DNA from: Salinihabitans flavidus | GTDB lineage: Bacteria; Pseudomonadota; Alphaproteobacteria; Rhodobacterales; Rhodobacteraceae | Direction of reading: 5' to 3' | Assembly (NCBI RefSeq): GCF_900110425.1 | Contig: NZ_FODS01000002.1 | Location: 62,001 to 126,000, forward strand | DNA: 64,000 bases | Shown: piece by piece, positions 25,807-55,370 of the stretch | How positions within the stretch are numbered: position 1 is the stretch's first letter | How the letters are laid out: every line of letters begins with the position of its first letter | Made by a program: the position numbers and the translations under genes | Notes under the pieces: model-generated | Database searches by the model: none | What the model was told of the DNA's origin: nothing | The model's input: the letters and a program-made list of their open reading frames with translations, nothing else

Positions 25807-26208
25807 ATGACAGACACGACGGTAGACCAATTGGTCAACGTTACACTCTACCACCGGCTCGGCGCCTCTGCCGGGATTCGGCGACTCGTCGACGGTATCG
25901 TTGACGCGCACCTGAGAAACCCGACGATCAAGGCGCGTTTCCTGCCCTATCTGGAGTGTCCCGAGAGGGTGGCGGAGATCAAGCATCAGACCTGCATGTT
26001 CTTCTCGGCCGAATGCGGCGGTTCCGACATCTATCGCGGCCGCAGCATGGCAGAGACCCATCGTGGGATGAATATCAGCGAAGCGGAATACGAGGCCGCA
26101 GTCGACGACATCATCGCCACCATGACCGAGCAAGGACACGACGAGGCGTCGCGGACCGAGGTACGCTCGATGCTCAACTCCCTGAAGGACGACATCGTGG
26201 GCGTATGA
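25807..26208 (+). CDS. Group I truncated hemoglobin
   Basis: Heme protein of 133 residues of the 2-on-2 globin family, able to bind oxygen or nitric oxide. It carries LYHRLGASAGIRRLVD at the start, the segment FLPYLECPERVAEIKHQTCMFF and the proximal heme-ligand region SMAETHRGMNIS with its His. The start follows AAGGAGG. The stop overlaps an upstream candidate ATG for the cupin gene, so these are operonic. Nitric oxide or oxygen handling near an oxidase that yields hydrogen peroxide is possible but speculative. Confidence 0.9.
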   Translation: MTDTTVDQLVNVTLYHRLGASAGIRRLVDGIVDAHLRNPTIKARFLPYLECPERVAEIKHQTCMFFSAECGGSDIYRGRSMAETHRGMNISEAEYEAAVDDIIATMTEQGHDEASRTEVRSMLNSLKDDIVGV

Positions 26209-26264
26209 TGTCCGCCAGCATCGCGGACCCACCGCTGAAAACACCGGAAAAGGACACACCGACC

Positions 26265-26630
26265 ATGTCACAAACCATTGAAACCAGACGATTCGAAACT
26301 CCGGACGAAGCGCTCGACATGAAAGAGCGGGGTGGAATCGATATCGTTCGGACAACCGCCGGAACAACCGGCATGTATGCGACCTTCGAACCGGGCTGGA
26401 CCTGGGAACGGGATGAAAAGCCTCTTCTCGGTTCGCCCGACACCTGTCCCATGCACCATACCGGCTACTGCATCGGTGGAAGGCTCGTGGTTCGCATGGT
26501 GGACACAGGGGCGGAAACGACCATCGAGACGGGAGATTTTTTCGAGATCCCGCCGGGTCACGACGCCTATGTGGACGGGTCCGAGCGTGTCGAGCTGATT
26601 CTGTTCGAGGCTGCGTCGCAGCATCACTGA
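26265..26630 (+). CDS. Cupin-domain protein
   Basis: Single-domain cupin of 121 residues. It contains the metal-site-like segments CPMHHTGYCIGGRLVVRMVD and GDFFEIPPGHDAYVDG, so residues HH and the later H could bind metal. Role unknown; not an ectoine synthase, as it lacks that family's conserved motifs. An ATG at 26205 overlaps the hemoglobin stop, but the start at 26265 is favoured because AAAAGGA sits 10 bases upstream and the extension is low in similarity. Confidence 0.78.
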   Translation: MSQTIETRRFETPDEALDMKERGGIDIVRTTAGTTGMYATFEPGWTWERDEKPLLGSPDTCPMHHTGYCIGGRLVVRMVDTGAETTIETGDFFEIPPGHDAYVDGSERVELILFEAASQHH

Positions 26631-26817: not shown

Positions 26818-28236
26818 TTATCTCGCGGCGATCGCGTCCTGCTCTACCAGTGCGGCATGCAGGGCCTTGACGGCCTCGGCCATCTGCTCGCTGTCGACAA
26901 TAAACTGCACGTCAACATGCCGCCCCGTATCCTGCACCGCGATGGGATCGATGCCAGCCTCGGCCAGCGCATTCAGCCCTCGGCGGGGCACCTGAAGCCC
27001 CGACATGTTGCTGCCCACCGCACTGACCAGCGCGACCTTGCGCATTTCAATCTCGGCGGCCGGATAGGAGGTCAGAATCTCCTTTTCGACCCTCTGCATG
27101 GCCTTGAGCGTGCCATTGACGTAGTGCGTGATCGTGTTGGCATTGGACGATTTGGAGACGATCCAGACATCGTGGCGGGTCAGTGCCTTGAGTATGGCGG
27201 CGTCATAGCCTTTCACGCCGACCATGTCCTGCTCAAACACCTGAAGTGCGAGAATGGGAAGCCCGGTGACCATCTCGACGCGGGGCGGGCCGCTTGTGTC
27301 GGAATCGATCAGCGTGCCCGGATCGCCCGGATCGAAGGCATTCACGATGCGCAACGGAATCTCGGCCTGGCGGAGGATCTTGGCGGCGGAGGGGTGGATC
27401 GCCTCCATGCCGAGGTTCGAAAGCTGGTCGGCCATGTCGTAATTCGTATGCCCGATCTTGACGACGCAATCCTCCCCGACAAGCCGCGGATCGGCGCTGG
27501 AGAGGTGGAACTCCTTGTGGATGACGGCCTCGCGGGCCGCAGTCCGCGCGGCCAGATGCGCGAAAGTGACCTCGGAATAGCCGCGGTCGTACTCGCGCAT
27601 CAGCCCCTCTCGGCACTGGGCGTAGCCGGTGACAACCGGCATTTCGCGCGCAAGGTCAACATCGGCGAACGCATCGTCCAGGCGGGTGGCGAGCGCAGGC
27701 TGGCTTTCGTCACGCCAGCCGGTCAGGTCAATCAGCCGGGCATTGATACCGTGCCGGGCCAGCATGAGCACGGTGACATGGGCCGAATGGGCCTCCCCCA
27801 GTCCCGAAAGCAATTCGCGGATGGTCATCATGTGCTGGTTGAGCCGGAAATGCCCGTAGGAACACAGGCGTTGCAGATCAATCAGGAAAGAGCGCGCACC
27901 CTCGATCCGATCACGAACGAACTCATCGGCGGCGCGCTGGTCGCCGGGATCGTCGAGCAGGCGTCCATGGGCCTCGCACATAGCATTGGCAACGGTGTTG
28001 AGCGCGTTGCTCCAGCCCATGCTGCTGTCTTCGGCGGCAAACTGCGCGTAGACGCCGGGCGAGCCGGACTTCTTGTTTTCCAGAAGCAGATCGGTGATGC
28101 CGCCATAGGCGGACACAACGAAGACCCGCTGGTAGAGATCGGCGCCGGGGCCGCCCCGTTTGAAAAGCGTGTCGATCAACTCGTTGGAGCGGCTCATTGT
28201 GGTGCCGCCGATCTTCTCGACCGTATGTTCAGCCAT
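26818..28236 (-). CDS. ask: Ectoine-type aspartate kinase (Ask_Ect)
   Basis: Phosphorylates aspartate as the first step towards diaminobutyrate and ectoine. Its 472 residues begin with HTVEKIGGTTMSRSNEL, the Ask_Ect form of the aspartokinase KxGGTS motif. Further features are VVSAYGGITDLLLENK and a long C-terminal region with ACT-like segments (MVGVKGYDAAIL, VALVSAVGSNM) that usually respond to feedback. The start at 28236 follows GGGAG at a short distance. It lies 61 bases after ectB on the same strand; in most ectABC-ask clusters ectC would lie here. 187 bases separate it from the cupin gene. Confidence 0.92.
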   Translation of the reverse strand: MAEHTVEKIGGTTMSRSNELIDTLFKRGGPGADLYQRVFVVSAYGGITDLLLENKKSGSPGVYAQFAAEDSSMGWSNALNTVANAMCEAHGRLLDDPGDQRAADEFVRDRIEGARSFLIDLQRLCSYGHFRLNQHMMTIRELLSGLGEAHSAHVTVLMLARHGINARLIDLTGWRDESQPALATRLDDAFADVDLAREMPVVTGYAQCREGLMREYDRGYSEVTFAHLAARTAAREAVIHKEFHLSSADPRLVGEDCVVKIGHTNYDMADQLSNLGMEAIHPSAAKILRQAEIPLRIVNAFDPGDPGTLIDSDTSGPPRVEMVTGLPILALQVFEQDMVGVKGYDAAILKALTRHDVWIVSKSSNANTITHYVNGTLKAMQRVEKEILTSYPAAEIEMRKVALVSAVGSNMSGLQVPRRGLNALAEAGIDPIAVQDTGRHVDVQFIVDSEQMAEAVKALHAALVEQDAIAAR

Positions 28237-28297
28237 GGGAGCTCCCTGCCCGGTAAATGCGCTCCGCGCCGTCAGGACGACCACGCGATCGCGTGCC

Positions 28298-29563
28298 TCA
28301 GCTGCCCGCCACGACGCCGGCCGCGGCACCGATGATGTCGAGCCCGGCCTCCAGCTGTTCCATTGGGATGGTCAACGGAGCGAGCACTTTGACGACTTCG
28401 CCATGGGCGCCCGAAGTTTCGATGATCAGGCCGCGCTCGAAACAGGCGGCGCAGATCCGATCTGCAAGCTCGCCCGAGCCCACGTCGATGCCGCGCATCA
28501 TCCCGCGCCCTTTCAGCGTTGCCCCCGGGACATGCGCCGCGACGGCCTCCAGCCCCTTTCGCAGGGCATCGCCCTTGCGGCGAACCTCGACGGCGAAGCT
28601 CTCATCACTCCAGAATTTTTCCAGCGCCACGCGTCCAGTCACGAAGGCATGGGTGTTGCCGCGGAAGGTGCCGTTGTGCTCGGCCGGCGACCATATGTCA
28701 TACTCGGGCCTGATCAGCAGCGCGGCGAACGGCAGCCCGTAGCCCGAGAAGGATTTGGCCTGCGTGACCATATCGGGCGTCACGCCCATCTCCTCGAAAG
28801 AAAAGTAGTGCCCGGTGCGCCCGCAACCGGCCTGTATGTCGTCGACGATCAAAAGCGCGTCATGCGCACGCGCGAGCTTCTCCACCCCCTGTAGCCATTC
28901 GGCCGAACAGGCATTCAGCCCGCCCTCACCCTGCACCGTCTCGACGATAAAGGCCGCCGGCGCGTCGATCCCGCTCGACGGGTTGGCAAGCATCGCCTCC
29001 ATGACCTTGAGGGTATCAACGTCCGCGCCCAGCGACCCTTCATAGGGCATATGCGTGACGTCACCCAGCGACACGCCGCCGGCACCCTGGCGTTTGCCGG
29101 CGTTTCCGGTCGCCGCCAGCGCTCCGAGTGTCATGCCATGAAAGCCGTTGGTGAACGCGATGATGTTCGCACGTCCCGTCACCTTGCGCGCCAGCTTCAT
29201 CGCCGCCTCGACGGCGTTTGTGCCGGTGGGCCCGGTCATCATCACCTTGTAGTCCATGCCGCGCGGTTGCAGGATCAGCCGCTCGAAGGCCCGCAGGAAC
29301 TCGGCCTTGGTGTCGGTATACATGTCCAGCCCGTGGGCGATCCCGCCCGCAGTGATGTGTTCGATCAGCGCGGCTGTCATGTCCGGATCGTTATGGCCGT
29401 AGTTGAGCACCGAGCAGCCCGCGAGAAAGTCAATGTATTCACGCCCCTCGATGTCGCGCATTGTCGCATTCTCGGCGCTGGTGAAAATCGCCGGAAGGCT
29501 GCGGCAATAGCTGCGCACCTGAGATTCGCGACGTTCGAAGATATCGGTTCTGGTATGAGTCAT
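28298..29563 (-). CDS. ectB: Diaminobutyrate-2-oxoglutarate transaminase
   Basis: Converts aspartate semialdehyde and glutamate to 2,4-diaminobutyrate using pyridoxal phosphate; cytosolic. It has 421 residues. The PLP Lys270 sits in TQAKSFSGYG, with DDIQAGCGRTGHYFSFE just before it and the N-terminal IFERRESQVRSYCRSLP highly typical of EctB. GPTGTNAVEAAMKLAR is another class-III transaminase motif. It lies 33 bases after ectA. The pathway continues only if ectoine synthase is present somewhere else. Confidence 0.96.
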   Translation of the reverse strand: MTHTRTDIFERRESQVRSYCRSLPAIFTSAENATMRDIEGREYIDFLAGCSVLNYGHNDPDMTAALIEHITAGGIAHGLDMYTDTKAEFLRAFERLILQPRGMDYKVMMTGPTGTNAVEAAMKLARKVTGRANIIAFTNGFHGMTLGALAATGNAGKRQGAGGVSLGDVTHMPYEGSLGADVDTLKVMEAMLANPSSGIDAPAAFIVETVQGEGGLNACSAEWLQGVEKLARAHDALLIVDDIQAGCGRTGHYFSFEEMGVTPDMVTQAKSFSGYGLPFAALLIRPEYDIWSPAEHNGTFRGNTHAFVTGRVALEKFWSDESFAVEVRRKGDALRKGLEAVAAHVPGATLKGRGMMRGIDVGSGELADRICAACFERGLIIETSGAHGEVVKVLAPLTIPMEQLEAGLDIIGAAAGVVAGS

Positions 29564-29596
29564 CTGCGGTCCCGTTTGTCTGGGGTTGCATTGGGC

Positions 29597-30163
29597 CTAG
29601 GAAGCCACGCTTGCGTCGCTCTCGTCGGAGGTTTTGTCTTCATCGCGGGCCCCCGAGGCATCGAATTCGCCGATGGTGACCATGTATTCTGTGGCATGAC
29701 GTCCCTCGAAATGCTCTTCGCGCTCATAGTGGGGTTCACGCTCGAGGTCGGCATCCATCCGGTCGGCAAAGGAGTTGAACAGTGCCCAACTCGCCTCGTT
29801 GTCCGCCGTGATCGTGGTACGAAGCCGTGTCACCCCCGCGCAGATCTCGCGGGCCAGAAGATGGTCGAGCATGCGCCGTGCCACGCCCATCCCGCGCGCC
29901 TTAGCGTCGACGGCGACCTGCCAGATAAACAGCGATTCGGGATCGCTCGGTTCGATGAACGCCGACACCCAGCCGACAACAGTGCCGTCGAGTTCGGCGA
30001 CAACGCAGGTGTCGCCGAACTGGTCGCACTGCAAGATGTTGCAATACATGGAATTTTCATCCAGCGGTCCGCTATCCTGTATAAGCTGCCAGACATCGGC
30101 ACCATCCTCGGATGTCGGTGCCCGCAGGGTAAGGCCGTCATCGGTACCCTCTTGAATTGCCAT
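29597..30163 (-). CDS. ectA: Diaminobutyrate acetyltransferase
   Basis: Acetylates the gamma-amino group of 2,4-diaminobutyrate, giving N-gamma-acetyldiaminobutyrate. It is a GNAT enzyme of 188 residues with the family segments LRAPTSEDGADVWQLI, SGPLDENSMYCNILQCDQF (very typical of EctA) and the acetyl-CoA site VDAKARGMGVARRML. The acidic tail (DEDKTSDESDAS) is unusual. The start follows AAAGGCGG. It is the first gene of the ectA-ectB-ask cluster; the 403 bases upstream hold a tandem 11-base repeat. Confidence 0.96.
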   Translation of the reverse strand: MAIQEGTDDGLTLRAPTSEDGADVWQLIQDSGPLDENSMYCNILQCDQFGDTCVVAELDGTVVGWVSAFIEPSDPESLFIWQVAVDAKARGMGVARRMLDHLLAREICAGVTRLRTTITADNEASWALFNSFADRMDADLEREPHYEREEHFEGRHATEYMVTIGEFDASGARDEDKTSDESDASVAS

Positions 30164-30340
30164 TGTTCCGCCTTTCCCGCAGCATGATCAGAATTCGCTA
30201 TGCGATCATAGATCATTGCACGCTCCTAGTCTTTGGCTTTCTGGCGCATGGCGGCATTCTTGCGGGTCAAGCGGTCAGAAACCAGCGGCTCCTCTTCTGT
30301 CCGGAAGACCTTTAACAGACAGATCAAACGCCTGAAAACC

Positions 30341-30384
30341 TGTGTCGGTATAACGTCGGTATTGCGTCGGTATCGCATCGGTGC
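30341..30384 (+). repeat. Four tandem 11-base repeats upstream of ectA
   Basis: Four consecutive 11-base units: TGTGTCGGTAT, AACGTCGGTAT, TGCGTCGGTAT and a weaker CGCATCGGTGC. Three share GTCGGTAT exactly. A repeat close to one helical turn places each copy on the same DNA face, as in cooperative regulator sites. The array ends 178 bases before the ectA start, in a region with no supported gene. Confidence 0.75.
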
Positions 30385-30520
30385 CGATTTCCGCGCAAAG
30401 CGTCCTGAACAGGGCGTTCGGCAAGGTTCTGTTCATCAAGGTTGAGATCGGGTTGACGCAGGACGGATCACGCCGCCCGCGCGCATTTCCCGCCCCAAGA
30501 CGCTGAGAGCGGTGGCAAGC

Positions 30521-30556
30521 GGCAGGGGCGGGCCCGCTCAGGGCCCCGCCCCTGCC
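30521..30556 (-). terminator. GC-rich hairpin after the TRAP dctP gene
   Basis: GGCAGGGGCGGG pairs with CCCGCCCCTGCC, a perfect 12-base stem around a 12-base loop, 10 bases past the dctP stop. There is no T-run on either side, so it may work as a 3' mRNA stabiliser or a Rho-assisted terminator. Confidence 0.55.
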
Positions 30557-30566
30557 GGAAGCGAGA

Positions 30567-31634
30567 TCAGCCGCGGCCGGTCAGCATCGGGACGGTCATG
30601 TCCTTGGCGTAGCGCTGCGCCTGAACGAGGTAGGCGTCATAGCTTTCGCGCACGCGCGCCACGTCCGGGTTGGCCTCGGTCAGATCGTTCTGCACCTCTT
30701 CCCACGCCTCGCGCATGGCGGTGACAATCTCCTCGCTGAAATGCAGGAACTTCACGCCCTCTTCGCGCAGCGAGGCCATCGCCTGCGCGTTGTAGTAGTC
30801 GAATTGCGCCTGCGTCTCCAGCGCGGCAGCATAGGACGCCGCCTGACAGATCATTTGCAGATCGGCAGGCAACTCGTCCCATGCATCCTGATTGAAGACC
30901 ACCGCAAGACCCGCGCCCGGCTCATTGTAGGCCGGCAGGTAGCAAAGGTTGGTCACCTTCTGAAGGCCGAACGCCTGATCGAGCATCGGACCCACCCATT
31001 CGGCGGCGTCGATCGCCCCCGATTGCAGCGACTGGAAGATTTCCGGCGGCGGCATCAGCACGGCATTGACGCCGAGTTTGCGGTAGATCTCCCCGCCCAG
31101 ACCCGCGATGCGCATGTTCAGGCCATCGAGATCGCCGACGGTGTTGATCTCTTTCTTGAACCAGCCACCCGATTGCGTGTTGGAGTTGCCGGAATAGAAC
31201 GCCTTGAGGCCCCGCTGGGCATAGATGTCATCCCAGAGCTCTTGACCGCCGCCCCATTTGAGCCACGCGAAATGCTCGTTCGATGTCATGCCGAAGGGCA
31301 CTGCGGTGAACCAGTGCAGCGCGGAGTTTTTCCCGGCGGCATAGTAGGTGGGGCCGTGTCCGACGGGCGCGTTGCCCTGCTGCACGGCATCCTCGACGGC
31401 GAAGGGGGGCACCAGTTCACCGCCCCCGTGGACGCGGAAACTCAGCCGTCCGTCGGACATGGTTTCAACCATCTTCGCAAAACTCTGCACGTTCGTTCCG
31501 ACGCCGGGGGCGTTCTTGGGAAAGGCGGTGGGCAGGTTCCACACGATATTGCCTTGCGCCACGGCTGGGCTTGCAAGGCTGCCTGCGGCGGCGGCGACGC
31601 CGACACCGCTGGCCAGGAATGTTCTTCTTTTCAT
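30567..31634 (-). CDS. dctP: TRAP transporter substrate-binding protein, TakP/FcbT1-like
   Basis: Periplasmic solute receptor of 355 residues with a Tat signal peptide (KRRTFLASGVGVAAAAG). The mature protein carries WNLPTAFPKNAPGVGTNVQSFA, GSNGLM-like segments including LDGLNMRIAGLGG with the Arg expected to bind the substrate carboxylate, and AIDAAEWVGPMLDQAFGL. These fit the subfamily of keto-acid and related carboxylate receptors, but the substrate is unknown. Third gene after dctQ and dctM on the minus strand. It lies between teaABCD and ectA, so a link to osmolyte metabolism is possible. Confidence 0.87.
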   Translation of the reverse strand: MKRRTFLASGVGVAAAAGSLASPAVAQGNIVWNLPTAFPKNAPGVGTNVQSFAKMVETMSDGRLSFRVHGGGELVPPFAVEDAVQQGNAPVGHGPTYYAAGKNSALHWFTAVPFGMTSNEHFAWLKWGGGQELWDDIYAQRGLKAFYSGNSNTQSGGWFKKEINTVGDLDGLNMRIAGLGGEIYRKLGVNAVLMPPPEIFQSLQSGAIDAAEWVGPMLDQAFGLQKVTNLCYLPAYNEPGAGLAVVFNQDAWDELPADLQMICQAASYAAALETQAQFDYYNAQAMASLREEGVKFLHFSEEIVTAMREAWEEVQNDLTEANPDVARVRESYDAYLVQAQRYAKDMTVPMLTGRG

Positions 31635-31679
31635 CTTCTCCTCCGAGTTTTCAGTTTTCAGGTTCGTTTTCGTCTGGGG

Positions 31680-33221
31680 TCAGAACAGCACGCCGGGCAA
31701 CCATGTTGCAAGCGGCGGAAAGGCGATCAGGATGCCCAGCCCGATCAGTTGCAGGACAACGAACGGGGCCACGCCGATATAGATGTCGCGGGTGGTGATG
31801 TGGCGCGGCGCGGTGGACCGGAAGTAGAACAGCGCAAACCCGAAGGGCGGCGTCAGGAAACTGGTTTGCAGGTTCATCGCAAGCAGCACGCCGAACCAGA
31901 CCGGCGAGACATCGCCCCCGAGGATCGGCGGCCCGAGAAGCGGGATGACGATATAGATAATCTCCACCGCTTCGAGGATGAACCCGAGCAGGAACACCAG
32001 CCCCATGATGACCGCCAGCGCGCCCCATTCCCCGCCCGGCAGGTTCGCCATGAGCTCGGACACCAGATCGTCACCGCCGAAGCCGCGAAAGACCAGCGCC
32101 AGAAGCGAGGCCGCGACAACGATGCCGAACACCATCCCGGTGATCTTCAGCGTGTCGCTGGTTGCGACAACAAGAACATCGGTGCGCAGCAGGGTGCGCA
32201 TCGACAGTGCGATGGCGAGCACCAGAAGCGCCACGAAGAAGGCAGCCAGAACGATCAGGCCGGTCCCGTAGCGTCCGTCGGTGACCATGCGCAGCACGAC
32301 AAGCGCCAGCACCGCCACCGCCCCGAGCGCCACGAGGCGCCGCCCCGTGCCCGGTTCCTGCAACTGATAGCCCGCGAGGATGAGAGCGCCGACCGCGCCG
32401 AGGCCGGCCGCCTCTGTCGTGGTGGCGATGCCGGCGAGGATCGAGCCGAGAACCGCGAGGATCATCAGCAGGGGTGGCGCGAAACTTTCGAGAATCTCGC
32501 GCGGGCGCGGCTGTGGTCCGGTCTGAACCGACCCCGCCTTGGGGACGCCGCTGCCCCGCAGCGTGGCGAAGATGTAAAGCGCATAGAGGCTGACAAGCAC
32601 CAGCCCCGGCAACAACGCCCCGGCAAAGAGATCGCCGACCGAAACCGCATCGGGCGCGAAATTGCCCGCCTGCTGCTGCGCCTCGAGGTAGGTATTGCCG
32701 ATCTGATCGCCTAGTAGCACCAGAAGGATCGAGGGCGGAATGATCTGCCCCAATGTGCCGCTGGCGCAGATGATTCCGCTGGCCAGCCGCTTGGGCACCC
32801 CGGCGTCGAGCATCGCGGGCAGGCTGATCAGCACCAGCATCACCACCGTCGCACCGACAATTCCCGTCGATGCGGCGATGATCGCCGAGAACGCCAGAAC
32901 TGAAAGCGCCATGCCGCGTGCGGAACCGCCGAGCATCCGGCGCAGCACATCGAGCATCTTCTGCGTGACATGGGATTTTTCGAGCAGCACCCCCATGAGC
33001 ACGAAAAGCGGCACTGCCATCAGAAGCGGGTTGGACATCACGCCATAGACGCGCGCGGGAAAGAAGTTGAGGAACCCAAGATCGAAGGCCCCGAAGGCGC
33101 TTGCGATCACGGCGGTGAGCAGCGGCACCCCGGCAATCGCCAGCATGGCGGGAATACCGCTCAGGATGCCGGCGAAGAGGCCGAGCAGCATGAGAGCAAG
33201 GAACATCTCGGACAGGATCAT
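31680..33221 (-). CDS. dctM: TRAP transporter large permease (DctM), long form
   Basis: Main membrane channel of this TRAP transporter: 513 residues with more hydrophobic segments than the usual 425-430-residue DctM. The standard N-terminal part (ASTGIVGATVVMLVLISLP, ASGTLGQIIPPSILLVLLG) and C-terminal part (LGFILEAVEIIYIVIPLLGP) are present. About 80 extra residues with additional helices lie in the middle, near residues 270-350. Longer forms are known in the TakP-type group. The start overlaps the dctQ stop by four bases. Confidence 0.87.
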   Translation of the reverse strand: MILSEMFLALMLLGLFAGILSGIPAMLAIAGVPLLTAVIASAFGAFDLGFLNFFPARVYGVMSNPLLMAVPLFVLMGVLLEKSHVTQKMLDVLRRMLGGSARGMALSVLAFSAIIAASTGIVGATVVMLVLISLPAMLDAGVPKRLASGIICASGTLGQIIPPSILLVLLGDQIGNTYLEAQQQAGNFAPDAVSVGDLFAGALLPGLVLVSLYALYIFATLRGSGVPKAGSVQTGPQPRPREILESFAPPLLMILAVLGSILAGIATTTEAAGLGAVGALILAGYQLQEPGTGRRLVALGAVAVLALVVLRMVTDGRYGTGLIVLAAFFVALLVLAIALSMRTLLRTDVLVVATSDTLKITGMVFGIVVAASLLALVFRGFGGDDLVSELMANLPGGEWGALAVIMGLVFLLGFILEAVEIIYIVIPLLGPPILGGDVSPVWFGVLLAMNLQTSFLTPPFGFALFYFRSTAPRHITTRDIYIGVAPFVVLQLIGLGILIAFPPLATWLPGVLF

Positions 33222-33721
33222 GTCTCGCGCGCCTCTGGCGAGAGGACCGCGCCGAGGCCCTGAAGGATCATCAGCCCGCCCGCCAGCGGCAGCGCGGTCT
33301 TGACCAGATAGACGCCGCCGAGGCCCCCCGTCTCGATCGCGCCCTCGCGGATCGACCAGCTATAGAGCAGATCGGGCCAATAGGCCCAGATCATCAGGCC
33401 GAACACCGGCACCATCAGAAAAAGGAGCGCGGCGGTATCGGCGACGCGGATGTAAGCGGCGGGCAGGCGCTCGGAAATCACTTCCACCCGCACATGGCCG
33501 CCGCGCGCCAGACAGTAGGGCAACGACAGGATCATTAGGACCGCAAAGGCATAGCCGGCAAGGTTCTGTAGCTTGATGAAGCCGGTGTCGAAGCCGAATC
33601 GCAGAACGACGATGGCCAGAACGCTGGCCACAAGAACGGCACAGGCCGTGCCGCACAGCACTGCGGTGGCCCTGTCCGCCCAGCGGCAGAGCGCCAGGAT
33701 CAGCGACCTCAGTTTCACCAT
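33218..33721 (-). CDS. dctQ: TRAP transporter small permease (DctQ)
   Basis: Small membrane subunit of 167 residues with four hydrophobic segments, for example TAVLCGTACAVLVASVLAIVV and YAFAVLMILSLPYCLARGGHVRVEVI, the latter being the DctQ-like amphipathic region. The ATG at 33721 is favoured over the longer frame because the upstream part is Arg/Pro-rich and not DctQ-like. It is the first gene of a dctQ-dctM-dctP operon; its stop overlaps the dctM start. Confidence 0.8.
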   Translation of the reverse strand: MVKLRSLILALCRWADRATAVLCGTACAVLVASVLAIVVLRFGFDTGFIKLQNLAGYAFAVLMILSLPYCLARGGHVRVEVISERLPAAYIRVADTAALLFLMVPVFGLMIWAYWPDLLYSWSIREGAIETGGLGGVYLVKTALPLAGGLMILQGLGAVLSPEARET

Positions 33722-33934
33722 CGCGCGGCCCCGGCGCCTGCCCGATGACGGCCCCCTGCCCGCCGGGCGCGGAAAGGCCCCGGCGCATCGCAGTCTGTGT
33801 GCATGAATTCCCCCCGGTCGTTCGGGACCGTTGGTAATGAAAGGGGGCCAGTGTGCCAAGTGGGAAATGCCCGGCCGCGCCCCGGGGCAAGGGCGCCGCG
33901 CCGGCTTTCCCGCCTCGGGCGGTGGGTTCTGGCC

Positions 33935-34378
33935 TCAGATGACCAGCACGGGAACGGGCGACAGGCCGGTGACCTTGTGCGATACGCTGCCCAGCAGGTA
34001 GTTTTCGACCGATCCCATTCCGCGGCTGCCGATCACGATGAGATCGTTCTCGTGCTGCTTGGCGAAAGAGATGATCGTGCGCGCGGGCTGCCCGACCTTG
34101 GTGAAGCCGCGCACGCGGGGGGCGCCCTGTTCCGTCAGGATCGCCTTGCCGTGTTCGGCCACCTCCTTGGCGTGGCTGCGCATGGCGTCGTCGATGCTGC
34201 CCGGCTCTTGCGTGCGCACCATCGAGAACGACGCCTCCAGCATCGAGTGGTGGCGATAGACCGTCAGGACCGTCACTTCCGCATCGCAGAGCTTGGCCAG
34301 GCTGGCCGCCGTGATGAGGGCCTCCTCCGCCCCGGTGGAGCCATCGAAGGGGACAAGGATATTCTTGAACATCGTCAT
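33935..34378 (-). CDS. teaD: Universal stress protein UspA, TeaD-like
   Basis: ATP-binding UspA-family protein of 147 residues with MFKNILVPFDGSTGAEEAL at the start and the ATP loop IGSRGMGSVENYLLGSVSHKV (G-2x-G-9x-G-S form). It is the gene just after teaC, with a 25-base gap. In Halomonas the equivalent TeaD protein sits in the same place and limits ectoine uptake by the TeaABC transporter. Same role is likely here, though UspA proteins are common and the link rests on gene order. Confidence 0.85.
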   Translation of the reverse strand: MTMFKNILVPFDGSTGAEEALITAASLAKLCDAEVTVLTVYRHHSMLEASFSMVRTQEPGSIDDAMRSHAKEVAEHGKAILTEQGAPRVRGFTKVGQPARTIISFAKQHENDLIVIGSRGMGSVENYLLGSVSHKVTGLSPVPVLVI

Positions 34379-34403: not shown

Positions 34404-35690
34404 TCATTTGGCAAAGGCCATGTCCCGCAGGAAAAGGGCGATCTGCGGAAAGAATATCAGCGCCGCGGATATGCACAGCAGGATCAGGATGAACGGCGGC
34501 GTGCCGCGCACCACGTCCATGTAGGGCCGCTTGAACACCGCGATGGCCGTGAAAATGTCACACCCGAATGGAGGTGTCGCAGAGCCGATGGCCACCTGCA
34601 AGGTGATGATAACGCCCACGAGAACCGGGTCGAGCCCGACACTGTCCACAACCGGGGCGAAGATCGGAACCAGAACGAGGATCACCACGATGGGGTCCAC
34701 GAACATGCAGCCGATGAAAAAGGCGATGGAGATGACCACCAGAACGCCGATCTGGCCCATTTCGTCGATGCCGATACCGCTCAGGATTTCCTGCGGGATC
34801 TGCGCGAAGGAAATGACCCACGAAAAGGCATTGCCCACCGCGACGAGGATGAAGACGACCGCCGTGATCAGCCCGGTGGACTTCGCGGTGTCATACAGCC
34901 CTCTGAAATCCAGCTCCCGAAACACCACCATTTCCAGAAACAGCGCATAGAGCACACAGGCCGCCGCGGCCTCGGTCGGGGAAAAGATGCCGCCATAGAT
35001 GCCGCCGATGATGATCGCCGGAAACCCGAGCGGCCAGAGCGCCCTGCGCGTGGTCGTCATCCGCTCGGACCATGTCGCCCGCTCCTCCGTCGGCACCTTG
35101 TGTCTCACCGCGTAGATCCACGAGTAGATCGAGAACAGAACCAGAATCAGAAGCCCCGGCCCGACGCCGGCGATGAACAGCTCGGAGATGGAGGTGTTCG
35201 ACACCACCCCGTAGATGATCATGCCGATGGATGGCGGAATCAGAAAGGCGATGTCCGAGGAATTCACGATCAGCGCCAGAATGAAGCTGTCCTTGTATCC
35301 GGCCTTGAGCATGCGCGGCCGCAAGGGGGAGCCGATGGCGACCACGGTCGCCTGAGTGGAGCCGGACACCGCGCCGAACATCGTGCAGGCGGCGGCGGTC
35401 GAAACGGCCAGCCCCCCGCGCATGTGCCCGACAAAGGCCATGACCATGTCGATGAGCCGGCCCGCCGACTGTCCGCGCGTCATGATGTCGGCGGCCAGAA
35501 TGAACATCGGCACCGCGATCAGAGAGGCCGGACGAATCCCGGCCATCATCTGCTGGACCATGGTCTCCATCTGCCCCATGCCGCCGAAGAGGGTAAAGAA
35601 CCCGACGAAGGCCGCGACGATGAGCGGGATCATCATGGGAAATCCCAGCAGAAGAAGAACCACCATGATGGAAAAAATCGTGATCGACAT
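34404..35690 (-). CDS. teaC: Ectoine TRAP transporter large permease TeaC
   Basis: Large TRAP channel subunit of 428 residues with about 12 hydrophobic segments. It carries DctM hallmarks: GGLAVSTAAACTMFGAVSGS, IVNSSDIAFLIPPSIGMIIYG, YGGIFSPTEAAAACVLYAL and VAIGSATPPFGCDIF. The start at 35690 (MSITIFSI) is preferred over 35741, which would add an Arg-rich non-family extension. It lies 10 bases after teaB. Substrate assignment comes from the TeaA receptor in the same operon. Confidence 0.9.
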   Translation of the reverse strand: MSITIFSIMVVLLLLGFPMMIPLIVAAFVGFFTLFGGMGQMETMVQQMMAGIRPASLIAVPMFILAADIMTRGQSAGRLIDMVMAFVGHMRGGLAVSTAAACTMFGAVSGSTQATVVAIGSPLRPRMLKAGYKDSFILALIVNSSDIAFLIPPSIGMIIYGVVSNTSISELFIAGVGPGLLILVLFSIYSWIYAVRHKVPTEERATWSERMTTTRRALWPLGFPAIIIGGIYGGIFSPTEAAAACVLYALFLEMVVFRELDFRGLYDTAKSTGLITAVVFILVAVGNAFSWVISFAQIPQEILSGIGIDEMGQIGVLVVISIAFFIGCMFVDPIVVILVLVPIFAPVVDSVGLDPVLVGVIITLQVAIGSATPPFGCDIFTAIAVFKRPYMDVVRGTPPFILILLCISAALIFFPQIALFLRDMAFAK

Positions 35691-35700
35691 GATGCTCTCC

Positions 35701-36333
35701 TCAGATCTCGATCTCGTCGTCATCGTATCCCTCGAGCACATTGGTCGAGAGATAGATGTCGGGTTGAATCATGTTCTTGATCGCGGTCAGCAGGTACTGA
35801 AGCCCGGTCATGAAGAACCCGACCGGCACCCAGACCAGAATGATCCAGACCGGGATCTGCAACGACGGCAGCACCCGGCCGCGCCCGGCCTGCGTCAACA
35901 TGTATTGCAGCGAATACCACGCCAACCCGAGCATGAAGACCGCGGTGACAAGGGAAATCACGATCATCAGAAGCTTGCGCGGTTTCGACGGAAGCGTGTC
36001 ATAAATCGCGGACATGCGGATGTGCCGACCCTGCCGCGCCGCATAGGAGATGCCGGCAAAGGTGATCAGGATGATGAGAACGCGGTTGAGCTCTTCGGAA
36101 AAGAAAAGACTCGATTGAAAAACGAAACGGCCCACCACATTCGCGATGGTGTTGCAGGCCATCAAGAGAACCCCAGCCGCCAGAAAAACGGATTCGATGC
36201 GGGCAATCCCTGTGTCCACGACACCCAAAAGCCCCGGAAGATCCGACTTATAGGCCTTTAAGGGAGCATCGTCTGTCGATGTCGTATCGGTTTGCGACTG
36301 AATTTGCGAGCCGTCTTCGTCATGCTCCGTCAC
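35701..36333 (-). CDS. teaB: Ectoine TRAP transporter small permease TeaB
   Basis: Small membrane subunit of 210 residues. An unusually long polar N-terminus (about 35 residues, [13 protein letters not shown] onward) precedes four hydrophobic segments, including [24 protein letters not shown] and [16 protein letters not shown]. The acidic end is [12 protein letters not shown] is the likely start, behind GGGATGG. A hairpin with a T-run between teaA and this gene probably lowers its expression relative to the receptor. Confidence 0.87.
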
Positions 36334-36401: not shown

Positions 36402-37421
36402 TCAGTCGGATGTCGCTTCTGCGAGATCCTCTTTCATTTGCTCAAGAATCTCGGCACCGCTATCGCCGGTCATGTCGAGGAACTGCTGCTCCACCGATTC
36501 AGCGGCGTCCATGAACGGCTGGCGTTGCTCTTCGGTCAGCCGCGTGACGTTCATTTCCGGCTTGGCTTCCAGGATCGCGTCGAGAGCTTCTTCCGTGAGC
36601 CCTTCCTGATACTCGATGATGTGATCGAAGGCGACGTCGATGGCGTCCTGGATCATTTGCTGATCTTCTTCGGACAGCCCGTCATAGAAGTCCTTGTTGG
36701 CCATCACGGCAGTGGTGAAATTGTTGTGGCCGGTAAAGGTGATGTGGTCCGTGACCTCATACATCTTTGTGGATTCGACGAAGAACATCGGGTTTTCCTG
36801 GCCCTGGATGATGTTCGTTTGCAGCCCGCCGTAGACCTCGCCCCACGGAAGCGGCGTGGGCGTTGCGCCGAACGCCTTGTAGCTTTCCACCAGAAGCGGG
36901 TTGGTCATGACGCGGAACTTCACCTCGTCGAGATCGTCGGGCCCGGTCACCGGCTCTTTCGTGGTCATCACCACTTCGCCTTCGGGGAACATGGTCAGCA
37001 GTTCAAGCCCCTGTTCGGCGTAAAGCTCGGGGAACATCTCGTTGATGGCCTCGGAGTTGCGGAAGAACCTCGCCAGCGCGTCGGTGTCCTGCGGCAGCAG
37101 GTAGGGCACGAAGAAAACCTGCGCCTCGGGGATCAGAGAGCCGGTGAAGCCCGGCGACTGATCCACGAACTGCAGGATGCCGGCCTGTGCCTGCTCCATC
37201 GTGTCGGCGGATTCGCCAAGCGTCCCGTAGGGAAAGAGCTGCACGGTATGATCGGAATTCTTCTCGACCTCTTCCTTGAACTTCTGGGCAAAGACGCCCT
37301 GAACCTCGTCGATCGCCTCTTCGAAGGCATAGCGCCATGTGTCGGCCGCGGCGACCGTTCCAAGCGCCGAGGCCAGCGCAAAGCCAGTCACGATGTGTCG
37401 GATGGGTTTGGTGATTTTCAT
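36402..37421 (-). CDS. teaA: Ectoine/hydroxyectoine-binding protein TeaA
   Basis: Periplasmic receptor of a TRAP transporter for ectoine-type osmolytes, 339 residues with a Sec signal ([18 protein letters not shown]). It closely follows the Halomonas TeaA pattern: [100 protein letters not shown]. The similarity covers the length and includes the ligand-site Glu, Arg and Trp/Phe residues by context. The ATG at 37421 follows GAGGGG; a longer TTG frame is not family-like. First gene of teaABCD. Confidence 0.93.
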
Positions 37422-37868
37422 AAGAAAACTCCCCTCAAGTTTTAGTTTTCTGCGGACCACGCGGCAGCGCGCGGCAGTTTGATCCACAATGTCCGCGCGT
37501 ATGCCAGCATGACATTTCACACGCGTGTGCGGCCCGTCGGGCGCGCTGTCTGTTCCCGTGCCACATAATTGTGCGGACCCGGCGATCCGGGCGGAACCAC
37601 GTTTGAGACACATGAACGATGGCCTGTGCAAAGCGAGGTGTCAACTTTCTACATAAAAAAGTCGCTTTTCATCAGGTGTTTCAACGGCAAACCCGCCCGC
37701 TCGCATGGTTTGACACATGATTTCAGTGACCATTGCACGAGGCGCACGCAGGTTCGGGGCGCGTTCAGATTACGCTAACCGTTCTTGTTTCAAGAAGGCA
37801 TATGTCGAAACATTATAATATTCATCATGCGACCGGGAGGCTATGGTCCCCCCAAGGAGGACGCATGA
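37422..37868. promoter_or_regulatory. 447-base divergent control region between teaA and the CoA-transferase
   Basis: No gene is supported here. It is AT-richer than its surroundings. TATAAT at 37814-37819 is a candidate -10 for the plus-strand operon, though no good -35 lies at normal spacing. TGTTTC (37786-37791) and GAAACA (37807-37812) form an inverted repeat with a 15-base spacer beside that -10 and could be a regulator site. TTGACA at 37710-37715 has no matching -10. AAGGAGG before 37869 is the ribosome site of the CoA-transferase gene. Confidence 0.45.
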
Positions 37869-53318: not shown

Positions 53319-53349
53319 ATGACGCGATTACCGCGCCATATAGCGTCAT
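53319..53349 (-). other. Small inverted repeat between CocE-type hydrolase and binding-protein genes
   Basis: ATGACGC and GCGTCAT with a 17-base spacer lie just after the hydrolase stop. The surrounding 111-base gap is AT-rich and may hold an internal promoter for the transporter genes. No T-run follows the stem. Confidence 0.3.
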
Positions 53350-55370
53350 TACCCATGATTTCGTGGAACTCGCTCATCCCATTCGATCTCCTTGACAAGC
53401 ACCCTACCCTCCCATGCGCGCAGCCGGGCGCGGATGATGAAATCGCTTCGGTCCGTCCTCATGGTGGTTTCGGTCTTCGTCAGCACAGACCAGTCGCCAC
53501 GCTGCATCCCGTAGGTCCATTCGCAGCGCCCCGAGGCCGATGTCACATCGTCATGCGCAATTCTGTAGCTCTCAACCCCCTCTTTGCGCAGCGTCAGGTC
53601 GTTGTCATGCAACCGGAAGACCCCGGCACCGTCGGCGATCTGCATCTCGGTGCATCCGTTCGCGGCATCCTCCAGAACGCGGAAATAGACTTCCGGCGCC
53701 TCGATCTGGTCCATGCCCGGCGGCGGCCCGGCCTCCGGCGCGCCGAATGCCGGCAGTTCGTCATCCTCCGGCCGCGCCGCCCGAAGCGGCAGGGACAGCG
53801 CGCTGCCCGCGCTGTGCAGTGTCAGGCGCACCGGCTCCGGCGCGGGCCAGATCATCGGGAAATAGCTGGTCGAGATCGCCAGCCGAAGCCGGCGGCCCGC
53901 GGCAAAACTCTGCGCCACGTGTTTCATCGGGATCTCGATGTCATAGATCTCGCCGGGCACCAGCGCCTCGGGCACCTCATGCCCGTTGCGATGGGTCAGG
54001 TTGAACACCCCGAAGGACACGCGGGTGGATCGGCCATCGGCGTCCACATCGCAGATCCGCGCGGCGACCTGCGCCACCGGGCGGTCCACGCTCACCCGCA
54101 GGCGCACGATGGCATCGCCCGCCATCTCCAGCGGCGCGGATAGCGGGTCTGTCTCGAAACACAGGCTGCCGCCATCCTCGGCGCGCTGATCCAACGGCGC
54201 GTCGCCCGGCTTGGAATAGCCGCACCATTTGCCAGAGGCCATGCCCACCGTCGCGGGCGAGTGATGCGTGAACTCCGCCGCCCCCTCGGGCGCCTCGCGC
54301 CGAAGCCCGCCATCGGGGCAAAGGTGAAAATCGGTGCGCGCCACATGGGGCGAGGGCCAGCACGGCTCCGCGATCCAGCGGCCGGGCCGATGCTCGTAAT
54401 GCCCCTGTGGCGGCACGCTGTCCTGCATGTAAAGGCGCAGCATCGGCTCCTCCATGATACCGGTCTCCCGCCCCTTGAGCCAGTGATCCCACCAGCGCAG
54501 CTCATCCTTCAGAAACCCGATCGCCGGACCCGGTTCGCCCATATGCGGGTAGCGGTGCGCCCATGGGCCGACCAGACCCTTCTTCGGGCCCTGCAAATGC
54601 TCCATGAGGCGAAAGACGCTGCGGCAATAGCCATCGGCCCAGCCCGACACCGCGTAAACCGGGATCCGGATCTTCGACCAGTCCTCGCAAACCGATCCAT
54701 GCTTCCAGTAATCGTCGCGCGCCTGATGCTCCAGCCAGGTCTTGAGCCACAGACCGCTTCCCTCAAGCCGCTGCATCCACATCTCGCGCCACTTCGCCCC
54801 GACATTGGCCGGATCGGGCGGCAGCGTGTTGCGCCCGAACATGATCGAGGCCCAACTCAGCTGCTCGCCCAGCAGACAGCCCCCCATGTAGTGAATGTCG
54901 TCGGCATAGCGGTCGTCGGTCGAACACAGCGTGATGATCGCCCGGAGCGCGGGCGGCTGCATCGCGGCGATCTGCAAGCCGTTGAATCCGCCCCATGAAA
55001 TCCCGATCATGCCGACAGTGCCGTCGCACCATGGCTGATCCGCGATCCAGGCGATGGCGTCGACGCCGTCCTGCAATTCCTGCGCGGTGTATTCATCGAC
55101 CATCAGCCCCTCAGAATCGCCCGCCCCCCGCAGGTCGAGCCGGATCACAGCATAGCCATGACCCGCCAGATAGGGTTGCATCGAAGCGTCGCGCTCCGTG
55201 GTGAGGTCGTTCTTGCGATAGGGCAGATATTCAAGGATCGCGGGCACCGGCGCCGCCTCCGCCCCGTCGGGAATCCAGATCCGCGCGGCCAGGATGCATC
55301 CGTCAGGCATCGGCACCTCGACGTGGCGATATTCCTTCACCGCGTGGGGATACTCCGTGACATGTTTCAT
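53349..55370 (-). CDS. CocE/NonD-family hydrolase (S15-like)
   Basis: Alpha/beta hydrolase of 673 residues of the CocE/X-Pro dipeptidyl-peptidase superfamily. The nucleophile Ser125 is in MIGISWGGFNG, the preceding RLDLRGAGDSEG is also typical, and the C-terminal half (about 380-540) is a jelly-roll domain. There is no signal peptide, so it is probably cytoplasmic. It heads an operon of peptide ABC transporter and C69-type peptidase and could act on imported peptides or on esters. The start at 55370 follows no strong ribosome site but matches family N-termini. Confidence 0.88.
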   Translation of the reverse strand: MKHVTEYPHAVKEYRHVEVPMPDGCILAARIWIPDGAEAAPVPAILEYLPYRKNDLTTERDASMQPYLAGHGYAVIRLDLRGAGDSEGLMVDEYTAQELQDGVDAIAWIADQPWCDGTVGMIGISWGGFNGLQIAAMQPPALRAIITLCSTDDRYADDIHYMGGCLLGEQLSWASIMFGRNTLPPDPANVGAKWREMWMQRLEGSGLWLKTWLEHQARDDYWKHGSVCEDWSKIRIPVYAVSGWADGYCRSVFRLMEHLQGPKKGLVGPWAHRYPHMGEPGPAIGFLKDELRWWDHWLKGRETGIMEEPMLRLYMQDSVPPQGHYEHRPGRWIAEPCWPSPHVARTDFHLCPDGGLRREAPEGAAEFTHHSPATVGMASGKWCGYSKPGDAPLDQRAEDGGSLCFETDPLSAPLEMAGDAIVRLRVSVDRPVAQVAARICDVDADGRSTRVSFGVFNLTHRNGHEVPEALVPGEIYDIEIPMKHVAQSFAAGRRLRLAISTSYFPMIWPAPEPVRLTLHSAGSALSLPLRAARPEDDELPAFGAPEAGPPPGMDQIEAPEVYFRVLEDAANGCTEMQIADGAGVFRLHDNDLTLRKEGVESYRIAHDDVTSASGRCEWTYGMQRGDWSVLTKTETTMRTDRSDFIIRARLRAWEGRVLVKEIEWDERVPRNHG

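Follow-up and report, generated by a model that had tools for sequence, protein, structure and literature searches.

A 64,000-nt stretch of the Salinihabitans flavidus genome (hereafter the window) carries an ectoine gene cluster, ectA2-ectB2-ask2, from which the ectoine synthase gene ectC is missing. The three genes are all intact and lie adjacent to each other on the minus strand in the order ectA-ectB-ask; their products were assigned to families using curated NCBIfam models with cut-offs. The first gene, ectA2 (29597..30163), encodes an L-2,4-diaminobutyrate N-gamma-acetyltransferase of 188 aa (TIGR02406, 186.3 bits; cut-off 120.6) with phmmer matches to the EctA chains 6sjy, 6sk1 and 3d3s. 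A spacer of 33 bases (29564-29596) separates it from ectB2 (28298..29563), which encodes an L-2,4-diaminobutyrate transaminase of 421 aa (TIGR02407, 588.9 bits; cut-off 552.2) matching the EctB chain 6rl5 with 508.5 bits in phmmer. The third gene, ask2 (26818..28236), codes for a 472-aa aspartate kinase of the ect-cluster type (PRK09181, 656.9 bits; cut-off 536), which groups with the ask genes of ect clusters in the tree. The spacer between ectB2 and ask2 (28237..28297), read from the sequence and compared with the junctions of relatives, is the site of ectC in canonical clusters and comprises 61 bases. An initial annotation of this locus had described intact and adjacent ectA, ectB and ectoine-type ask genes with no ectC in the 61-base gap, and both points are confirmed here, at the same positions and with scores over the curated cut-offs.

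No EctC (PF06339) was detected in the window, and when all of the assembly (4.09 Mb, completeness 100) was searched, matches came up on two other contigs only, C70 and C72. On C70, a MarR-type ectR gene lies divergent from ectA and is followed by ectA, ectB, ectC and ask, forming a complete cluster, while C72 (8.8 kb) carries a solitary ectC scoring 194.5 bits, which is over the PF06339 cut-off. An ectD gene was found at C35:302121-302945, likewise over cut-off, and a eutD-like gene on C53 reached 584.4 bits, below the cut-off of 613, with sub-cut-off matches also present in 14 of 14 control genomes. EctB2 and EctA2 are 65% and 60% identical to their respective C70 counterparts. The window cluster is therefore a second, paralogous ectoine cluster in a genome with a complete canonical one. 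The earlier proposal of a pathway ending at the acetylated intermediate in a cell without ectoine synthase is thus not upheld: two other loci carry ectC, one of them as part of a complete ectABC-ask cluster with ectR next to it, and ectD is present as well. The initial annotation had itself named an ectC elsewhere with matching regulation as what would overturn it; the profile search bore on the first part, the presence of the gene, and found it elsewhere.

Both EctC proteins of this genome keep all eight ligand-binding residues equivalent to those of the Paenibacillus lautus enzyme (Trp-21, Arg-25, Thr-40, Tyr-52, Glu-57, Tyr-84, His-92 and Phe-106 in P. lautus numbering; PMC6344544). Position 38 is His, not Asn, in all 79 canonical EctC rows and in C72. 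The possibility that the solitary ectC is the gene moved away from the second cluster was considered and rejected, as its product is a distant EctC (at most 56% identity to those of the sister second clusters, end branch 1.76). On C72 (locus L013), the gene divergently adjoins an ATP-grasp gene (L013 3181-5171). The same contig shares 3.2 kb (L013 5532-8766) at 89.5% identity with the flank of the second cluster of Rhodovulum visakhapatnamense (L026 697-3931); this module contains transporter, major facilitator superfamily and metallo-beta-lactamase-like open reading frames (ORFs), named by eye, and ectC lies outside the shared part. A cupin ORF by the ask2 end (25956-26630, plus strand) was considered as an EctC substitute and is an unlikely one, with 21.9 bits for Cupin_2 (cut-off 27.2). 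It is not among the PF06339 matches of the genome, and no cupin adjoins the ectC-less clusters of three relatives (L015, L018 and L087, see below) in ORF lists read by eye without a family search.

To place the cluster among its relatives, we scanned 84,980 species genomes with EctB and examined the best 80 of 564 relatives. A match to ectC adjoins ectB at 77 of these 80 loci. The three without it belong to Rhodobacteraceae bacterium WD3A24 (L015), Fodinicurvata fenggangensis (L018) and the Hyphomicrobiales bacterium CSSed10_249R1 bin (L087), where the contig begins inside ectB so that EctA lies beyond it. A fourth ectC-less relative was found in the Fodinicurvata-family genome G794 (L142), and there may be more such clusters with more distant EctB beyond the best 80. 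The ectC-less clusters form one clade in each gene tree, with support (Shimodaira-Hasegawa-like approximate likelihood ratio test) of 100 for EctB, 99 for Ask and 96 for EctA; four members are present in each of the EctB and Ask trees and three in the EctA tree, from which three EctA rows were dropped. In a concatenated tree of 26 rows hand-picked from 89, the five-member clade (the window and the four others) was recovered with 100/100. The other four genomes each have one EctC, which adjoins a canonical ectB. A bad join at the ectB2-ask2 junction, which the initial annotation had allowed for, is ruled out because the same ectC-less junction occurs in these four other genomes. Its view of a clean deletion rather than decay of the cluster holds, as the form is conserved in the clade of five.

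The clade appears thinly spread. At an EctB cut of E 1e-218, which captures the ectC-less clade only and not its sister clusters with ectC, so that the rates do not describe the whole second lineage, 2 of 394 sampled genomes of the window's family matched (the window's own and one that by sequence is WD3A24), as did one of 385 genomes sampled from the class, again the window's own. In the family of Fodinicurvata fenggangensis, 2 of 12 genomes matched, one being Fodinicurvata fenggangensis itself. Plasmids were considered as carriers of close relatives and dismissed: none of 132 plasmid records (EctB E <=1e-100) reached at least 80% identity, 33 lying at 60-80% and 99 below 60%.

The remaining genes of the ectC-less clusters are well conserved. 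Throughout the clade ectA, ectB and ask are open, with 72-91% identity between genomes, and the pairwise ratio of nonsynonymous to synonymous substitution rates (dN/dS), a simple estimate at dS of 0.46-1.47, ranges from 0.088 to 0.361 (eleven pairs; L142 left out). Columns invariant in canonical clusters are changed at 0-1 of 41 positions in EctA, 0-1 of 123 in EctB and 1-2 of 109 in Ask, with canonical rows excluded on length for EctA (three), EctB (two) and Ask (five). EctA2 retains the residues that stand opposite positions 33, 79 and 155 of P. lautus EctA in the alignment, to which a catalytic role is ascribed. EctB2 retains the lysine aligned with the pyridoxal phosphate site, given as Lys-274 for P. 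lautus EctB in the part of PMC6915088 consulted.

Four further second clusters are sisters of the ectC-less clade, those of Rhodovulum visakhapatnamense (L026), Rhodovulum sp. 12E13 (L043), Marivita sp. SBSPR1 (L033) and S24.Bin137 (L076), the last two being metagenome bins. Together with the clade of five they make up a nine-member second lineage, supported with 100/99 in the concatenated tree. Among the single genes, EctA placed the nine on one side of a branch with 94.8 (not starred), and free searches with EctB and Ask did not recover the lineage, yet did not reject it either (approximately unbiased test, p-AU 0.537 and 0.882, respectively). In all nine genomes ectC adjoins another ectB.

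The fate of ectC differs among the sister clusters. L026 and L043 encode an intact EctC. The EctC of L076 has Asp in place of the iron ligand that corresponds to His-92 and differs at 6 of 48 canonical-invariant columns, compared with at most two in a leave-one-out analysis over 79 canonical rows. This protein is 73-74% identical to those of L026 and L043, below the 87% of EctB, while four control pairs show the reverse. Since the C72 EctC diverges even more (7 of 48 columns, against six in the damaged L076 protein), divergence alone is insufficient and the case for damage in L076 rests on the exchange of His-92 for Asp; exchange of the same residue for Ala in P. lautus EctC is reported in the sections seen of PMC6344544 to leave 12.7% activity. 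In the L033 genome, ectC is split into two pieces on two contigs. Each piece stops at a 14-base end, present in inverted copies, and the 8 bases outside it are identical on the two sides. It looks like a gene split by an insertion-sequence-like element, although ask does not follow the 3' piece, so that a rearrangement may have taken place instead of a simple insertion.

Taken together, ectC is lost or damaged in seven of nine second clusters by three routes, namely deletion, a split at insertion-sequence-like ends and loss of an iron ligand, whereas none of 79 canonical clusters has a change in any of the eight ligand-binding residues checked. Fisher's test gives p 5.7e-9, a value computed without regard to kinship; the five deletions are one event, and the 79 canonical rows are relatives rather than independent samples, eight of them coming from second-cluster genomes. 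Judged from these sequences, ectC is eroding in the second lineage.

The second clusters also differ from the canonical one in their surroundings. Many, though not all, ectoine clusters of the ectABC type have a MarR-type EctR gene upstream. In the window a dctP gene adjoins ectA2 on that side, and no gene matches the MarR-type ectR gene of C70. The upstream stretches examined of L015, L018, L026, L033, L076 and L142 yielded no ectR homologue either; those of L043 and L087 are cut by contig ends. No sigma-70-like site was found in 29500-30700. A strong hairpin follows the dctP stop codon (minimum free energy -46.5, z -2.48), which has no T run and was not called as a terminator. Between dctP and ectA2 lies an 11-base tandem repeat of 3.5 copies with the consensus GTCGGTATAGC (30344-30382), the period of which could suit a DNA-binding regulator. 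Repeats of this type recur elsewhere in the same genome and at two Pseudooceanicola loci (L014 17210-17250, L006 289-306, L069 4056-4084 and L078 4980-4997); the L014 copy, however, lies between two convergent ORFs.

Upstream of ectA2, all on the minus strand, the window encodes two tripartite ATP-independent periplasmic (TRAP) transporters. The substrate-binding protein of one of them (36402..37631) matches 3fxb, 3gyy and 2vpn in phmmer with 528.2, 453.5 and 443.8 bits, respectively, the next best match having 194.9 bits; these three are UehA and TeaA entries. By sequence likeness this UehA/TeaA-like importer is of the ectoine type, as the initial annotation had supposed. Its small and large permease subunits (34404..36333) are represented by a sub-cut-off YiaM match only and by a DctM match over cut-off (364.6 bits), respectively. 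The adjoining gene for a universal stress protein (33935..34378; UspF 33.8 bits, below the equivalog cut-off) is placed as in teaABCD/uehABC operons. The second TRAP transporter (Q, M and P genes, 30567..33859) is of a keto-acid type according to the phmmer matches of its DctP to 5cm6 and 7ug8 (ketoacid-binding) and 2hzk, with DctM at 245.1 bits, below cut-off; its genes sit between those of the ectoine-type transporter and ectA2.

The neighbourhood changes from one ectC-less cluster to the next. Arginine-deiminase pathway genes lie directly upstream in L018 (2420-7102) and L142 (2314-7002), where arginine deiminase was identified by Pfam and the other genes were named by eye; L015 is flanked by cyanophycin-synthetase-like, ATP-grasp, asparaginase and S15-hydrolase genes, and L087 by housekeeping genes. 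A cyanophycin-synthetase-like gene, ATP-grasp genes and S15-type hydrolase genes stand beside two second clusters (L015 3248-17217 and L043 2439-10034), and the window contains an S15-type hydrolase homologue at 53349-55370, 23 kb from ectA2-ectB2-ask2. No ectoine-type TRAP importer was found in the stretches examined beside the other ectC-less clusters. Because the neighbours differ among loci, the importer is not a conserved part of these clusters, and the suggestion that a TeaABC-type importer makes up for the missing ectC does not extend to them as a general feature.

The window cluster can be compared with several known arrangements. It shares the EctA, EctB and Ask families and the gene order with the canonical ectR-ectABC-ask cluster of Rhodobacteraceae-type Alphaproteobacteria, a complete copy of which is present in the same genome, but it has neither ectC nor an adjoining ectR, and its proteins form a clade of their own. 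The second clusters of L026 and L043, which belong to the sister clade, likewise stand beside a canonical cluster, and no ectR was detected in L026; they differ in having kept an intact ectC. The literature describes solitary ectC genes well (Czech et al., 2018; PMC5924519, as far as its text was available), and scattered ect genes likewise (parts of PMC2553793 and PMC7824335). In the solitary-ectC genomes of the former survey the ectoine genes are split over loci, and the genome studied here also has a solitary ectC; its window cluster, however, is the mirror case, ectAB-ask without ectC. Rhodovibrio, with ectBC and two separate ectA genes (PMC7824335, from the portion consulted), resembles it in having ect genes outside one operon, but there ectA stands apart, whereas here ectC is absent from the second cluster. 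The survey of Czech et al. (2018), according to the portion available, started from EctC sequences, so it would have missed ectC-free clusters. In the literature open to full-text search, which leaves subscription papers outside its scope, we found no report of second ect clusters without ectC.

With ectC present in trans in all these genomes, the window cluster is probably, though by no means certainly, a booster that has no EctR next to it and provides additional N-gamma-acetyldiaminobutyrate for EctC produced in trans. If the genes are expressed, Ask2, EctB2 and EctA2 would increase the flow from aspartate to N-gamma-acetyldiaminobutyrate, with the chromosomal aspartate-semialdehyde dehydrogenase taking part; ring closure would then fall to EctC acting in trans, from the canonical cluster and perhaps from the solitary gene on C72 too, and the raised level of the intermediate would yield more ectoine without a second ectC. 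Aspartate kinases are named as the main limiting factor for ectoine in recombinant Escherichia coli (PMC2562377, in the part seen), and ask_ect has been read as a remedy for a limited supply of aspartate semialdehyde (PMC6915088). The Km of P. lautus EctC for N-gamma-acetyldiaminobutyrate is given as 7.8 mM (PMC6344544). As the supply of aspartate semialdehyde is a recognised limit on ectoine output and this Km is in the millimolar range, a second Ask-EctB-EctA set could push more intermediate through one EctC, and more intermediate would mean more ectoine. Since the intermediate alone would thereby raise ectoine output, ectC would be the expendable gene of a duplicated cluster. With no adjoining ectR seen, the second cluster may furthermore be switched on under conditions other than those for the first.

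Several observations count against this interpretation. Two of nine second clusters keep an intact ectC, which would be needless if flux alone were wanted. The damaged ectC of L076 does not show an elevated pairwise dN/dS (0.093-0.143). In addition, substrate or product inhibition with a Ki of 47 mM is reported for P. lautus EctC (available text of PMC6344544), so any increase of the intermediate would be bounded.

An alternative, which we regard as unlikely, is that the second cluster yields N-gamma-acetyldiaminobutyrate as an end product (an osmolyte or thermoprotectant), or the start of an ectoine-independent hydroxyectoine route, with the canonical cluster off. The cluster stops exactly at this compound in the same form in five genomes and has no adjoining ectR where this is visible; an ectoine-independent route from the intermediate has been suggested for Chromohalobacter salexigens (PMC2553793, in part), and ectD is present in this genome. 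Nevertheless, the canonical EctC of all five genomes would use up the intermediate if co-expressed, and two of the four sister clusters have an intact ectC. A broader version is that an ectC-free ectA-ectB-ask module has been selected in several alphaproteobacterial lineages and delivers N-gamma-acetyldiaminobutyrate on demand, as a protectant or as a precursor of something other than ectoine. This seems doubtful, if still worth entertaining, as it meets the same canonical EctC in every ectC-less genome unless expression is separate. According to the sections of PMC6344544 consulted, no source of N-gamma-acetyldiaminobutyrate is known besides ectoine metabolism; if the proposal were true, the ectC-free module would be a new dedicated source of this compound outside the complete ectoine pathway.

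Rather improbable is a third possibility, that the intermediate or diaminobutyrate is drawn into a different biosynthetic route, such as a ligase system of the ATP-grasp or cyanophycin-synthetase-like kind. Proteins of these kinds and S15-type hydrolases adjoin the clusters of L015, which lacks ectC, and L043, which kept it, and the solitary ectC of C72 has its divergent ATP-grasp neighbour. A search within the window, however, found no homologue of the L015 cyanophycin synthetase or ATP-grasp proteins but the distant hydrolase alone, and the arginine-deiminase or housekeeping neighbours of the other loci show that this neighbourhood is not conserved. A split second pathway, with the solitary C72 EctC reserved for the window cluster, is very improbable: the two occur in one genome and the protein has an intact ligand-binding set and a PF06339 score over cut-off, but the other four ectC-less genomes manage with one EctC each, beside canonical ectB, and the C72 protein has no close counterpart among the EctC of the sister clusters (56% identity at best, with an end branch of 1.76). 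Least credible is a decaying duplicate in which ectC was merely first to go, for although ectC was damaged by differing routes in several second clusters, ectA, ectB and ask remain open, at 72-91% identity and dN/dS of 0.088-0.361, with nearly all invariant columns kept.

The booster role is thus our preferred, if provisional, account of the window cluster. Because surveys of ectoine producers take EctC as their starting point, clusters without ectC go unnoticed in them. The second lineage suggests that a duplicated pathway can repeatedly drop its last enzyme and keep its supply end, provided the cell has another copy of the enzyme in trans. Cultured carriers, such as Fodinicurvata fenggangensis DSM 21160, offer a way to learn which of the two, supply or EctC, sets the limit on ectoine output, and if the acetylated intermediate serves a function itself.

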